Under the pieces are notes generated by a model. It saw only the letters and a list, made by a program, of their open reading frames with translations, was not told where the DNA came from and ran no database searches. 7,099 nucleotides of DNA, from contig DVOV01000183.1 of assembly GCA_018713375.1 (NCBI GenBank), positions 1 to 7,099 on the forward strand, given 5' to 3'. The DNA comes from Candidatus Scatomorpha stercorigallinarum. Its GTDB lineage: Bacteria > Bacillota_A > Clostridia > Oscillospirales > Oscillospiraceae. A program made the translations under genes and the position numbers. How positions within the stretch are numbered: the first letter of the stretch is position 1; each line of letters starts with the position of its first letter. Shown piece after piece: positions 3,538-7,099 of this stretch.

Positions 3538-3879
3538 TTTTATGCCTCCAATCCGTATTGTTTTATACGTCCCTGAGGCCATATTAGCATTGTAAATCGG
3601 CATGGTCAATGCGAAATTGCGAAAACAATACACTTATCATCATGTCTATTTCGTACAATGTAAACGCCAGAGATATATAAATATTGCACAGAAATTTTGC
3701 CGAATGGCGGCGTTTTACCGGCTAAAATTGAGCCTGCCTCAGGCGCTTTGAGAAAATAGTTTCTCATATTTTCACGGCCCGTCCTGCCTGGCCGCCGGGG
3801 GCGGCGCGGAACGATGGATATACCCCAGTTCACAAATCAGGTATAGAATATGCTCATCACACACAGCGGAGGCGATGCA
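3538..3879. other. Divergent AT-rich intergenic region
   Basis: 342 bases between the leftward starch operon and the rightward recombinase gene, AT-rich from about 3541 to 3780. It holds the starch-operon promoter and leader. It also has small hairpins: GCCTG/CAGGC (3732-3744), GAGAAA/TTTCTC (3750-3765) and GCCGCC/GGCGGC (3791-3805). The minus strand has an open frame at 3606-3833, but it lacks a convincing ribosome binding site and overlaps the promoter, so I do not call it a gene. I could not find a clear plus-strand promoter for the recombinase; TATAGA at 3842-3847 is a possible -10 without a good -35. Confidence 0.6.
3581..3609 (-). promoter_or_regulatory. Promoter of the starch-binding/malEFG operon
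   Basis: On the minus strand, -35 TTGACC (3609-3604), a 17-base spacer and -10 TAATAT (3586-3581). A TG one base before the -10 gives an extended -10. The predicted start near 3574 leaves a leader of about 37 nt before the ATG at 3537. A tandem GCGAAATT/GCGAAAAC (3611-3626) sits directly upstream of the -35 and could be an activator or operator site, but I do not recognise it as a known consensus. Confidence 0.7.
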
Positions 3880-4722
3880 ATGAACGACAGATACGTTACG
3901 GAAAAGCTGCTTGAGGATTTTTCCTCCCAGCTGCGGGCGGCGGGATGCGCGCAGGGGACGGCGGAGAACTACCTTCGCCATGTGCGCGCCTTCGCGCGCT
4001 GGCTGGAGGGCGGCGAGGCGACGGGCGAAGCAGCGGCGGGATGGCGCTGCTGGCTGCTCGGGCAGGGCTATGGCCCGCCGAGCGTCAACGGCATGCTGGT
4101 CGCGCTGAACCGCTTCTTCAAGTTCGCCGGCTGGGACTGCCGCACGGAGCTGCTGCGCATACAGCGGCGCGCGTTCCGCGACCGGGGCCGCGAGCTGACG
4201 CGCGGGGAGTATGAGCGGCTCGTAAAGGCGGCGCGCGGCCATGGCCGCGGGCGGCTCGCGCTGGTGATGGAGACCATCTGTGCCACCGGCATCCGCGTCA
4301 GCGAGCTGCGATATGTCACCGTCGAGGCGGCCAGGCGGGGACAGGCCGAGATCGCCCTCAAGGGCAAGATACGCACCATACTGATACCGGCCCGGCTGCG
4401 GCGCAAGCTCCTGGACTACGCAAGGAAAAACAAAACCGCCTCCGGCGAGATATTCCTCACCAGAAGCGGCAGGAGCCTGGGGCGAAAACAGATATGGGCG
4501 GAGATGAAGGCGGCCTGCAGGTCGGCGCACGTCGCGCCGGGGAAGGTGTTCCCGCACAACCTGCGGCACCTGTTCGTGCGCGTTTTTTACCGCGAGTGCC
4601 CCGATATCGTAAAACTGGCGGACGTGCTGGGCCATTCCAGCATCGATACTGCCAGGATCTATCTTGTGGCCAGCGGCGAGGAGCACGCCCGGGTGCTCGA
4701 CCGGCTGCGGTTGGTGACGTAG
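3880..4722 (+). CDS. Tyrosine-type site-specific recombinase (catalytically complete)
   Basis: Integrase of the XerC/XerD-like tyrosine recombinase superfamily, 280 aa. It cuts and rejoins DNA at specific sites through a covalent phosphotyrosine. The N-terminal SAM-like core-binding domain spans about residues 5-90 (TAENYLRHVRAFARWL). The catalytic domain spans about 105-275. All catalytic positions are visible: R139 in ATGIRVSEL, K161 (or K163) in LKGKIR, H226 and R229 in HNLRH, H252 in LGHSS, and the Tyr nucleophile Y261 in ARIYL. The ATG at 3880 is preferred because GGAGG (3868-3872) lies 7 bases upstream; an in-frame ATG at 3850 has no such site. The compact size, lack of phage or transposon genes, and inverted-repeat sites directly at its stop codon favour a DNA-inversion or resolution role over prophage integration. 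Its actual site is inferred. Confidence 0.9.
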   Translation: MNDRYVTEKLLEDFSSQLRAAGCAQGTAENYLRHVRAFARWLEGGEATGEAAAGWRCWLLGQGYGPPSVNGMLVALNRFFKFAGWDCRTELLRIQRRAFRDRGRELTRGEYERLVKAARGHGRGRLALVMETICATGIRVSELRYVTVEAARRGQAEIALKGKIRTILIPARLRRKLLDYARKNKTASGEIFLTRSGRSLGRKQIWAEMKAACRSAHVAPGKVFPHNLRHLFVRVFYRECPDIVKLADVLGHSSIDTARIYLVASGEEHARVLDRLRLVT

Positions 4723-4743
4723 GACAATATACATAGTTTGTCC
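4722..4743 (+). repeat. Inverted-repeat site L (candidate recombinase or operator site)
   Basis: A 22-bp dyad with arms GGACAA and TTGTCC around TATACATAGT; its first G is the last base of the recombinase stop codon. The core GGACAATATACATA recurs in inverted orientation at 4964-4985. The two 22-mers match at 18 positions when one is reverse-complemented and 16 in direct orientation. I infer it is bound by one of the two flanking recombinases. Confidence 0.6.
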
Positions 4744-4777
4744 CATATCGTGATGCCATTCGTATGACATTACGCAA

Positions 4778-4806
4778 ATTTTAACACAGGTTTCGGCATA
4801 ATGCAA
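4778..4806 (-). promoter_or_regulatory. Leftward extended -10 promoter between the recombinases
   Basis: On the minus strand, -35 TTGCAT (4806-4801), a 17-base spacer and -10 TAAAAT (4783-4778) preceded by TGT, which gives an extended -10. It points away from the second recombinase and would transcribe antisense into the 3' end of the first. The -35 lies in the arm of the hairpin at 4797-4824. If the segment between sites L and R were inverted, this promoter would face the second recombinase with a leader of about 65 nt. Confidence 0.5.
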
Positions 4807-4824
4807 GATGGTTCTTGCATTATG
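4797..4824. repeat. Perfect 12-bp hairpin with TGGT loop
   Basis: CATAATGCAAGA (4797-4808) and TCTTGCATTATG (4813-4824) form an uninterrupted stem around a 4-base loop. No T tract follows on either strand, so it is not an intrinsic terminator by itself. It overlaps the -35 of the leftward promoter, so a protein-bound dyad or a cruciform could affect that promoter. Confidence 0.7.
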
Positions 4825-4826
4825 GC

Positions 4827-4888
4827 GCGCGTAAAAGCAGGCCAATCAAGAGCATTTTTTGATTGGCCGGGGTTTTACGCGCTTTTTT
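4827..4888 (+). terminator. Rho-independent terminator after the first recombinase
   Basis: A long two-part stem. The outer arms are GCGCGTAAAA (4827-4836) and TTTTACGCGC (4873-4882). The inner arms are GGCCAATCAA (4840-4849) and TTGATTGGCC (4859-4868). Six T follow at 4883-4888. It terminates plus-strand transcription from the first recombinase, about 105 bases past its stop, and insulates the second recombinase from readthrough. Confidence 0.85.
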
Positions 4889-4912
4889 GCTTTCGCGTCA
4901 GAAAATTATAAT
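4884..4912 (+). promoter_or_regulatory. Possible rightward promoter for the second recombinase
   Basis: A consensus -10 TATAAT (4907-4912) lies about 90 bases before the ATG at 5002. The matching -35 position (TTTTTG, 4884-4889, 17-base spacer) is poor and overlaps the terminator T tract. The surrounding ATTATAAT is self-complementary, so the -10 match also reads leftward. I call it weakly. Confidence 0.3.
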
Positions 4913-4963
4913 TGTTGTGTTATCAATTTGTATCCGACGCATCCTTATGTCCGGCTCCAGGCG

Positions 4964-4985
4964 TAACAATATATGTATATTGTCC
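4964..4985 (-). repeat. Inverted-repeat site R (partner of site L)
   Basis: On the minus strand it reads GGACAATATACATA, then TA, then TTGT; site L has GT at the variable step. On the plus strand the core is an 8-bp dyad, ACAATATA and TATATTGT around TG. It lies two bases before the AGGAGG of the second recombinase, so it could also act as a hairpin or protein-binding site in that leader. Confidence 0.6.
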
Positions 4986-5001
4986 ATAGGAGGCGAGGGG
5001 A

Positions 5002-5823
5002 ATGGAACAGCGCGGGCGCGCGGACGGCGGCGTCGCCGTCACGTGGCAGAGCGTTGACGAATATCTGGCGAGCCTGACGCAGCGCGGCTGTTCACCGGAC
5101 ACCGTGCGGGCCTACCGCCGCTGCCTGGCGAGGCTCTACCGCTTCCTGCCGGGGGACAAGCTGCTCCGCCGGGGGACGCTCGAACTCTGGCGCGGGGAGC
5201 TGCTGCAGACATACACGCCGCGCACGGTGAACGTCAACGTCTCGGCGGTGAACAGCTATCTGGAGCACATCGGCGCGCGGGAATTCCAGCTCACGCGGCC
5301 GCTGCCGCCGCCGGAGGACGACCAGCCGGAGATAACGCGGGCGGAATACCTGCGGATGCTCGGCCGCGCCAGGCAGGACGGCAACGAGAGGGCCTATCTG
5401 CTGACAAAGGTGTTCGCCTGCACGGGCCTGACGGTGCAGGAACTGCCCTGCGTGACGGCGCGGGCGGTGGCGGAGGGCCGGGTGGAGCCGCCCGGCGGGG
5501 AGGAACGGGCAGTGAAGCTGCCGGAGTGCCTGCGCCGCGAGCTGTCCGGCTATATGAGCCGGCACGGCGTGCGGGAAGGGCCGGTGTTCGTAACGCGCAG
5601 CGGGCAGCGCATGAGCCGCACGGCGGTGACGGACTGCATCCAGCGCCTGGCCGCGTCGGCGCACATCGCCCCCGGCAAGGGCAATCCCAGATGCCTGCGC
5701 AAGCTGTACCTGGCCGCGCAGAAGGAGATATGGGACAGCCTGCGGCCCATGGCCGACCAGGCCCACGAGCGCCTGATCGACACCGAGCAGATGGCCGTCG
5801 GCTGGCCGGAAAGAGAAGAATGA
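5002..5823 (+). CDS. Degenerate tyrosine-recombinase paralogue lacking catalytic residues
   Basis: A 273-aa paralogue of the upstream recombinase with the same two-domain layout: a SAM-like DNA-binding region at about 15-90 and a catalytic-fold domain at about 108-268. Clear shared blocks include 'VTRSGQRMSR' and 'SAHIAPGK' against 'LTRSGRSLGR' and 'SAHVAPGK'. Aligned to the first protein, the catalytic Arg is T144 (CTGLTVQEL) and the Lys position has no Lys (about G165-G166). HNLR becomes RCLR (H lost at 230, R233 kept), the second His aligns with E256 (H255 is adjacent), and the Tyr nucleophile is A265. It should therefore be unable to cleave DNA by itself. The uninterrupted frame and good AGGAGG (4988-4993, 8-base spacing) suggest a maintained role, such as DNA-binding partner, directionality factor or repressor. 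That role is inference. The surface-protein gene follows after 21 bases, probably on the same transcript. Confidence 0.85.
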   Translation: MEQRGRADGGVAVTWQSVDEYLASLTQRGCSPDTVRAYRRCLARLYRFLPGDKLLRRGTLELWRGELLQTYTPRTVNVNVSAVNSYLEHIGAREFQLTRPLPPPEDDQPEITRAEYLRMLGRARQDGNERAYLLTKVFACTGLTVQELPCVTARAVAEGRVEPPGGEERAVKLPECLRRELSGYMSRHGVREGPVFVTRSGQRMSRTAVTDCIQRLAASAHIAPGKGNPRCLRKLYLAAQKEIWDSLRPMADQAHERLIDTEQMAVGWPEREE

Positions 5824-5844: not shown

Positions 5845-7099
5845 ATGAAAAAGACAAAAAAGCTGCTGGCCATGGCGCTGGCGCTGGGGCTCCTGCCCGC
5901 GGCGGCGATGGCGGCGTGCGACCCGAAGGTCACTATAAGGAAAGCGGGCAGATTGCGGGCCAGATCGCGGCCTGCGAGGTGGAAGAGATCACGGACTTCG
6001 AGATCGAGGGCTCGCACGTGGTGTTTGATATCGGCTCCGCCGGTTTCTCGCCCTTCGCGCTCGTCTGGGAGACCGAAAAGGTGCCCGAGCCTGTGAGCCG
6101 GCTGACGGTAACCAAGAGCGCGGACAAGGACGAGGCGGCGGTGGGCGAGACCGTCACTTACACCATCACGGTCAAAAACACCGGCACTACGGTGCTCACG
6201 GGCGTGAAGGTCACCGACACGTTCAGCGGCGGCCACGGCGCGCTGCGCTTTGAGCTGCCCGACGGGGTGACGGACAACGGTGACGGGACGTTCACCATCG
6301 GCGAGCTGGCAGTTGGTGATAGCGTGGAGATAACGGCCAAATACACGGTGCTCGAAGAGGACGCCGGCACGACGCTGACGAATACGGCTGTGGCGGACAG
6401 CGCGGAGACCGGGCCGAATGAGACGACGGAGACCGTAGATATCCCCGAGGCCGAAGAGCCGGACGAGCCCTGGTGGCCGCCCATCATCCCGCCGGACGAC
6501 GATGACGACGATGACGATGACGAGCCTGTCCGTCCCGGCAGCACGGTGCCGCCGATGCTCAACGGGAAAGATCATTTCGCCTACGTCATCGGCTACGAGG
6601 ACGGCACGGTGAAACCGGAGGGCACCATCACGCGCGCAGAAGTTGCAACGATAGTTTTCCGCCTGCTGAAGCCGGAAGTGCGCGACGGCAACCTGACGAC
6701 CGCCAACAGCTTCGCGGACGTGGACGAAAGCGACTGGTATGATATGGCAGTGTCCACGCTGGTGAAGCTGGGCATCATCACGGGCCGGACGGAGAGCGTT
6801 TTCGACCCCGACGCGCCGATAACGCGGGCTGAATTCGCGGCGCTTTTTGCGCGGTTTGACGAGTCGGAGGCGCAGTTCGAGGGCTACTTTACGGACATTT
6901 CCGGCCACTGGGCGCGCGAGAGCATAGAGCGCGCGGCGGCGCTGGGCTGGATAACGGGCTACGAGGACGGGTCTTTCCGCCCGGATGCGGAGATAACGCG
7001 CGCGGAGGCGATGACGATGATAAACCGCGTGCTGGAGCGCGACCCGGTGAACGATGCAGATTTGCTGCCGGGGATGAGGGTGTGGAGCGACAACCCGCC
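5845..7099 (+). CDS. SLH-domain surface protein with DUF11-type repeat; frameshifted near the N-terminus, 3' end outside window
   Basis: Secreted protein held to the cell wall by SLH motifs, which in known families bind secondary cell-wall polymers. It starts at ATG 5845 after AGGAGA (5831-5836) with a typical signal peptide ending AMA. The starting frame then becomes unlike protein and stops at 6096. The frame one base back (from about 5931, HYKESGQIAG) continues open to the window end. One missing base near 5928-5930, for example in a former GGG run at AAGGT, joins the two. The downstream frame encodes 'FSPFALVWE' (common at the end of a preceding surface domain), a DUF11-type repeat from 6102 (LTVTKSADK, GETVTYTITVKNTG), a nine-Asp linker, and three SLH motifs starting near 6555, 6711 and 6888. 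Each SLH motif has ITRAE. Either this copy is broken or the base is a sequencing error. It probably shares a transcript with the degenerate recombinase. Confidence 0.82.
6495..6521 (+). repeat. GAY trinucleotide run encoding nine Asp
   Basis: Nine consecutive GAC/GAT codons follow a WWPPIIPP segment and precede the SLH motifs of the surface protein. It is a flexible, acidic, low-complexity linker between the DUF11-type repeat and the wall-anchoring part, and such a tract can change length by replication slippage. Confidence 0.8.

Follow-up and report, generated by a model that had tools for sequence, protein, structure and literature searches.

The window, which is the whole stretch of 7,099 nucleotides analysed here, carries on its plus strand a tyrosine recombinase gene named rec1 (3880-4722), a segment flanked by two short sites, a second recombinase-like gene named rec2 (5002-5823) and a gene encoding a surface protein with a signal peptide, a DUF11 domain and three SLH domains (5845-7099), which runs off the window and is the presumed phase-variable output. 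The signal peptide (5845-6096) and the SLH part (from about 5916) of this SLH gene lie in two different frames of the assembled sequence, for which a mutation or an assembly error is a candidate cause. The minus strand between 1 and 3540 carries ordinary neighbours, namely sugar-type ABC-transport permease genes and genes for a solute-binding protein and a CBM26 starch-binding protein.

Rec1 is an Xer-like tyrosine recombinase of the active type and the presumed invertase. It matches PF00589 (E=4e-17) and, at a score below the cut-off of that model, the XerA-like model NF040815. All six catalytic residues (R, K, H, R, H and Y) are kept in the window, and they are complete in 106 of 109 aligned rec1 proteins, with five kept in the remaining 3. 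The start of the gene was set at 3880, downstream of GGAGG at 3868-3872; the list of open reading frames has 3850. The predicted structure of rec1 has a mean pLDDT of 79, with values below 50 in the region of the Tyr, and because of this low confidence the model was used for secondary-structure contrast alone. Among relatives of rec1 with available DNA, the closest (74-79% identity) are found in L001 (Candidatus Scatomorpha) and in two more genomes of the same genus, and a search of viral contigs for relatives of rec1 returned none.

The left site (4722-4743, plus strand) consists of the arm GGACAATA, the spacer TACATA (4730-4735) and the arm GTTTGTCC. The right site (4964-4985, minus strand) is an inverted copy that reads GGACAATA-TACATA-TATTGTTA when reverse-complemented, with its spacer at 4972-4977. 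An earlier note on this DNA had described two 22-bp sites sharing 14 bases around a 220-base segment, and this description was confirmed: 14 contiguous bases are identical, and 18 of 20 agree over the inverted pair I9, which is the best inverted 20-mer match at the locus and compares with a maximum of 15 in 300 Markov resamples. The gap of 224 nt between the 20-nt arms equals 220 nt between the 22-nt sites (4744-4963, assigned to neither strand). The placement of the sites against the two genes was also as described there. The left site begins at the stop codon of a complete tyrosine recombinase with six catalytic residues, since the two share a base, the last of the rec1 stop codon TAG (4720-4722) and the first of the site, and the right site ends just ahead of the ribosome binding site of the next gene, as AGGAGG (4988-4993, upstream of the rec2 ATG at 5002) starts 2 bases past it.

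Within the segment, a leftward extended -10 promoter is predicted at 4778-4806 on the minus strand (TTGCAT-17-TGTTAAAAT), directed away from rec2 and the SLH gene. It comprises TTGCAT (4806-4801), 17 nt and TG T TAAAAT (4783-4778), is weak by consensus (3/6 and 5/6) and is absent from the list of a generic promoter scan. The promoter that had been proposed here is present as a weak consensus match, accompanied by a competing rightward candidate that the proposal had not mentioned, TTTTTG-17-TATAAT at 4884-4912, which on a looser promoter score reaches 8.7 compared with 10.2 for the leftward one, or 1.5 bits lower. Because the two scores are nearly equal, rec2 and the SLH gene may be partly transcribed, and rec2 may not be silent, in the assembled orientation. 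The rightward candidate overlaps the T tract of the terminator. The proposed rightward intrinsic terminator was found on the plus strand at 4827-4888, with a predicted stem at 4827-4882 followed by TTTTTT (4883-4888) and a hairpin energy of -35.7 kcal/mol (z -6.6); it was missed by a terminator scan, probably because the stem is interrupted. A perfect 28-nt dyad without strand assignment (4797-4824, z -6.4) covers the -35 element and is a candidate operator or RNA hairpin. A sequence resembling this dyad occurs in L113, the nearest intact relative. Between 4600 and 5100, Rfam gave three matches, two of them to miRNA families at the position of the terminator hairpin (E 5e-4 and 7e-4) and the third elsewhere (E 0.5). 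All of them fall far below the gathering scores and were not accepted as genuine.

Similar cassettes were collected from relatives. The GTDB species genomes yielded 134 relatives of rec1, of which 80 loci were kept, and searches at the family and genus level added more. There were 111 distinct cassettes including the window, and after 13 with less than 350 nt downstream had been dropped, 98 were left. An inverted pair of 18-mers agreeing at 16 or more of 18 positions just past the rec1 stop codon was observed in 80 of the 98 cassettes and in 0 of 196 resampled controls, leaving 18 cassettes that miss this mark; at 15 or more of 18, the counts are 84 of 98 and 2 of 196. The arms follow the consensus GGACAAAA......TTTTGTCC around a 6-bp spacer, and the sites usually lie 210-260 nt apart. 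In some cassettes (L013, L019, L020, L079 and L112), the left or right site is duplicated downstream of rec1, which may permit several inversion products.

At least six cassettes (L001:3555, L005:1405, L033, L069:7615, L117 and L120) have a single intact site and no segment, with the next gene directly after it, and two of the three nearest relatives with available DNA are among the cassettes of this kind. No second site was found in the rest of the fetched loci L001, L005 and L069. These cassettes suggest that the switch is lost at times, and they are candidates for either lost switches or a different arrangement. They could also resemble empty sites, and since rec1 is integrase-like, the sites could be read as att-like ends of an integrative or transposing element instead of parts of a promoter switch. 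This reading is extremely improbable: the sites are inverted and not direct, the segment in the window consists of a promoter and a terminator with no recognised gene, and the orthologues described below differ by inversion and not by excision.

Tyrosine recombinases require overlap sequences that are identical, and asymmetric ones for a defined outcome, whereas operators do not. The spacers of the cassettes were compared on this basis, with the left and right sites picked by arm score alone and the spacer ignored; both sites passed in 88 cassettes, and 10 of the 98 were dropped. In 80 of these 88, among them the window with TACATA in both sites, the central 6 bp of one site recur exactly, in inverted orientation, in the other. 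Agreement between spacers averages 5.6 of 6 positions within a cassette and 2.8 of 6 between cassettes, among which 57 distinct spacers occur, none of them palindromic. Over all 88 site pairs, mismatches per position amount to 13% in the seven arm positions on each side, compared with 6% in the spacer. With automatically chosen sites, the exact spacer rule fails in 8 of 88 cassettes; some of these look like a wrong choice of site, since an earlier free search had given better pairs (for example in L040), and all 8 were counted as failures. A spacer that is identical within a cassette and diverse between cassettes is expected of a crossover region and not of paired operators.

The earlier note had itself raised the alternative that the two dyads are paired operators, in which case the segment does not flip and the sites serve a transcription regulator, perhaps rec2. 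Each site in the window is indeed a dyad, and recombinase folds without catalysis can act as repressors, as the available part of the report on MrpR describes (PMC10516654). Operators leave unexplained, however, why an asymmetric spacer is identical within and different between cassettes, and they leave equally unexplained the two promoter orientations and the inverted orthologous segment found among relatives. The spacer comparison led to the rejection of the operator reading, which is highly improbable. The spacers were also considered as insulation between cassettes of the same genome, and no such rule was found: they differ in 26 of 29 same-genome pairs and are identical in 3 (10%), which is above the 1.7% between all cassettes.

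If the sites are crossover sites, promoters pointing in both directions are to be found among relatives, and this was observed. With a strict promoter pattern (TT[GT]nnn, 17 nt, extended -10), 49 of 84 segments have the promoter toward rec1 (left) and 17 toward the downstream gene (right), and 18 were not matched; a looser promoter score gave 51 left, 20 right and 13 undecided. Promoters of the two directions sit at mirrored positions: counted from the far end of the segment, the -10 element begins at 69-75 nt in most of the 66 oriented segments, and 72 nt is the commonest distance (19 segments). The rec1 tree (64 rows) has 14 changes of orientation compared with 15.2 +/- 1.3 for shuffled labels, which amounts to no phylogenetic signal, and orientation has no association with the presence of rec2 (p 0.37). 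Contigs end less than 400 nt downstream of rec1 in 11 of 41 cases (p 4e-6 against a uniform distribution); as a sign of mixed orientation these breaks were set aside as weak, since upstream ends also cluster (5 of 38).

The most direct comparison is between L164 and L165, two genomes of the genus of L001, which share an orthologous locus in which same-strand identity amounts to 80% for the rec1 3' end and 75% for the rec2 5' end. Their segments are 76% identical over 221 nt, and this only when one of them is reversed; the reversed alignment scores 78.5 compared with 2.4 +/- 1.4 (maximum 8) for shuffles. A clearly higher score in the inverted than in the same orientation was obtained for 11 of the 70 best-scoring segment pairs; L164/L165 is one of these and the only one with established orthology. 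The reverse orientation that the earlier note had named as a thing to look for in related genomes was found at the L164/L165 orthologue and not in the nearest intact relative of the window, L113/L162, which has the orientation of the window. With the site pairs and spacers of the whole family and the inversion between L164 and L165 as its basis, the segment at 4744-4963 is very probably an invertible-promoter phase switch. The original proposal of such a segment is thereby upheld by comparison of sequences from relatives, through spacers, both promoter orientations and an inverted orthologue, rather than by reads.

Further elements of the segments were compared in the 66 oriented segments. Terminator-like hairpins that score against the direction of the promoter are present in 46, and ones that score in its direction in 34, compared with 3 and 1 in shuffled sequences, and the stronger hairpin lies against the promoter in 40 and with it in 17, in a scan that also mis-scored the interrupted stem of the window itself. 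A rule that the terminator always opposes the promoter is unsupported, given the 34 segments that score with it. A directional TATGTA motif, spotted by eye before it was counted, occurs in 32 of 66 segments within the 44 nt that follow the -10 box; a control interval has it in 1 of 66, and the count for the reverse complement is 2 of 66. By eye, A or G often comes next after the motif. Its counterpart in the window, near 4763-4777, is degenerate (...GTAATGTCATACG on the minus strand). Possible roles of the motif are a binding site and, within the leader, an AUG-stop.

In the fim system of E. coli, the recombinase genes adjoin the fimS element. This short invertible promoter element is turned by site-specific recombinases and controls a surface structure, according to the part of PMC8777976 that was available. 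The fim system has two active recombinases (FimB and FimE), whereas here the second recombinase gene is placed on the output side, and its aligned members keep 0-2 of the six catalytic residues. In Clostridioides difficile, short segments controlling surface and motility genes are inverted by tyrosine recombinases, and some of these switches, though not every one, depend on the single recombinase RecV, as far as the consulted portion of PMC5903667 goes; in the family described here, there is one recombinase gene per cassette.

Invertible promoters beside tyrosine recombinases in Clostridia have already been catalogued (PMC11892184, group 139), and this kind of switch is known in principle. As given in the accessible sections of that work on the hCom2 gut community, inverton group 139 comprises 33 invertons, 32 of them from Clostridia, is linked to a tyrosine-type recombinase group (invertase group 35) and displays orientation shifts in reads. 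One of the invertons reported there, from Intestinimonas butyriciproducens DSM-26588, has inverted-repeat coordinates that give an inner gap of 227 bp, and it too shifts orientation in reads. The clade, the nearby tyrosine-type recombinase and the 227-bp gap, which is close to that of the cassettes here, are shared, and cassettes of the rec1 family occur in a genome named Intestinimonas butyriciproducens and in its genus. The cassettes here therefore likely match group 139, as far as it is described in those sections, and no cassette with a geometry equal to that of the published Intestinimonas inverton was found in two genomes of the genus. The same sections state that invertases near invertons are generally not regulatable by the inverton promoter, with group 145 as a possible exception, and they do not describe a dead partner recombinase.

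This partner, rec2 (5002-5823, plus strand), is the first gene on the output side and encodes a conserved protein with the tyrosine-recombinase fold and without the catalytic residues. The earlier note had expected inversion to aim the promoter at a degenerate recombinase and the SLH gene; the gene order agrees with this, but rec2 is one of a conserved family of non-catalytic proteins rather than simply a gene in decay. A rec2 frame of more than 200 aa is present in 30 of the 95 cassettes with at least 900 nt downstream and in none of the other 65 (L001 has a shorter one). The gene usually lies directly past the switch, and in some loci it follows the surface gene (L154) or is more distant. 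Each of 30 aligned rec2 proteins, a set that includes the broken L007 and the fused L088, keeps 0-2 of the six catalytic residues: K and the first H are kept in 0, the second H in 1, Y in 1 (L058), the first R in 4 and the second R in 19. Downstream of one rec1, L088 and L157 (minus strand) carry arrays of rec2-like genes, some of which are fused or truncated. At L155:2648-3784 and L160:5903-7039, rec2 has a different integrase-like gene (MARKGENIFKRK..., named by eye) close by, and in L155 the gene after rec2 looks Wzz-like by eye.

The predicted fold of rec2 (mean pLDDT 91, pTM 0.62) retains the recombinase plan. In the models, residues 229-266 form one unusual C-terminal helix where the second His and the Tyr are expected, and two six-residue strands around the Lys of rec1 are reduced to two-residue pieces in rec2. 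Structural matches in the PDB include XerA, lambda Int, integron integrase, XerH and Cre; MrpR and SroF rank below these active recombinases, with middling Z and an rmsd of 5-16 for the predicted structure, and they are not among the 10 PDB sequence matches of a rec2 profile at E up to 0.01. Both of them are phage repressors, MrpR (YopR) from SPbeta and SroF from phi3T, and like rec2 they combine a recombinase fold with a loss of catalytic residues. The Lys and the Tyr are retained in MrpR and lost from rec2.

The switch could be real and rec2 nevertheless a decaying duplicate of rec1 without a role. The loss of catalysis is consistent with this, as is the patchy distribution, with 65 of 95 cassettes lacking the frame and 21 changes in rec2 presence on the rec1 tree compared with 25.0 +/- 1.8 with shuffled labels (94 rows). 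Omega of rec2 also exceeds that of the neighbouring rec1 in all 12 pairs with both computed, and within-cassette co-adaptation of rec1 and rec2 was not detected in the DNA-binding domain (mean +0.004 compared with across cassettes; 13 of 25 positive). Whole-protein distances of rec1 and rec2 do correlate over 26 cassettes (r 0.41, 0 of 2000 permutations). Against decay, omega of rec2 is 0.13-0.62 in 13 of the 14 closest pairs, with synonymous sites saturated in the remaining one, and 27 positions of rec2's own, including the C-terminal E262, Q263 and W268, are invariant in 42 sequences (the window and 41 chosen among the 120 of 222 matches that were listed). The reading frames are full-length in most rec2 cassettes, and the fold is predicted with confidence. 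These sequence comparisons indicate that purifying selection acts on rec2, and decay without a role is improbable.

Rec2 is more readily understood as a regulator, and most likely it would be a DNA-binding feedback regulator of the switch or of the promoter. The precedent of MrpR, a dead recombinase that became a repressor, favours a regulatory role, and the position of rec2 on the output side suggests that it is gated by the ON state. Since its DNA-binding domain has no particular likeness to that of rec1 within a cassette, binding of rec2 to the recombination sites is a guess. No conserved dead recombinase in an invertible-promoter operon was found in the titles and abstract beginnings of the open-licence literature, which is weak evidence of absence, and the conserved dead recombinase on the output side looks like the new part of the system.

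The products encoded downstream of the switch are mostly very large exported proteins. Among 42 hand-picked downstream proteins, the window included, 12 have List_Bact_rpt, 11 SLH, 5 LRR_5, 4 VWA and 2 Wzz domains. L113/L162 has the same order of rec1, switch, rec2 and an SLH protein (of at least 1405 aa), and L009 carries chain-length and ATPase-type polysaccharide genes downstream, with L024 looking alike. A homologue (E up to 1e-10) of the DUF4379 treble-clef zinc-finger protein of L011 is encoded downstream in 19 of 95 cassettes, an assignment for which 4 of the 19 were checked against Pfam, and in several cassettes this gene lies directly past the switch (for example L011:5725-6858 and L028:1828-3003). 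It occurs together with rec2 in one cassette only (Fisher p 0.005, with kinship ignored), and the DUF4379 protein would be an alternative feedback module to rec2.

In the proposed mechanism, rec1 would bind both inverted 22-bp sites and exchange strands within the identical, non-palindromic 6-bp spacer, so that the 220-bp segment is inverted. We infer that rec1 is the enzyme and that flipping occurs in the strain of the window. The assembled orientation would be OFF, with the promoter running leftward into the 3' end of rec1 (antisense) and the terminator blocking read-through from rec1. After inversion, in the presumed ON state, the promoter would transcribe rec2 and the SLH surface-protein gene, and rec2 would be made mainly in this state. 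It is tentatively proposed that rec2 is a state-gated dead recombinase, through which the ON product could feed the state of the switch back on the flipping rate or on the promoter. Rec2 might do so by binding the recombination sites or by joining the synapse as an inert subunit, and one recombination site would lie in the leader of its own transcript.

With these comparisons, a candidate on a single contig becomes a cassette that is widespread in Oscillospiraceae and in related Clostridia of the gut. The site rule of conserved arms around a cassette-specific 6-bp spacer lets such switches be found in assemblies without reads. What they control, for the most part very large proteins of the cell surface and in some cassettes genes for polysaccharides, is what hosts and phages encounter. 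With the conserved dead recombinase, it becomes possible to test if a DNA-inversion switch can sense the state it is in, and by what means; if the proposed feedback is true, rec2 would give such a switch a memory or a set ON time.
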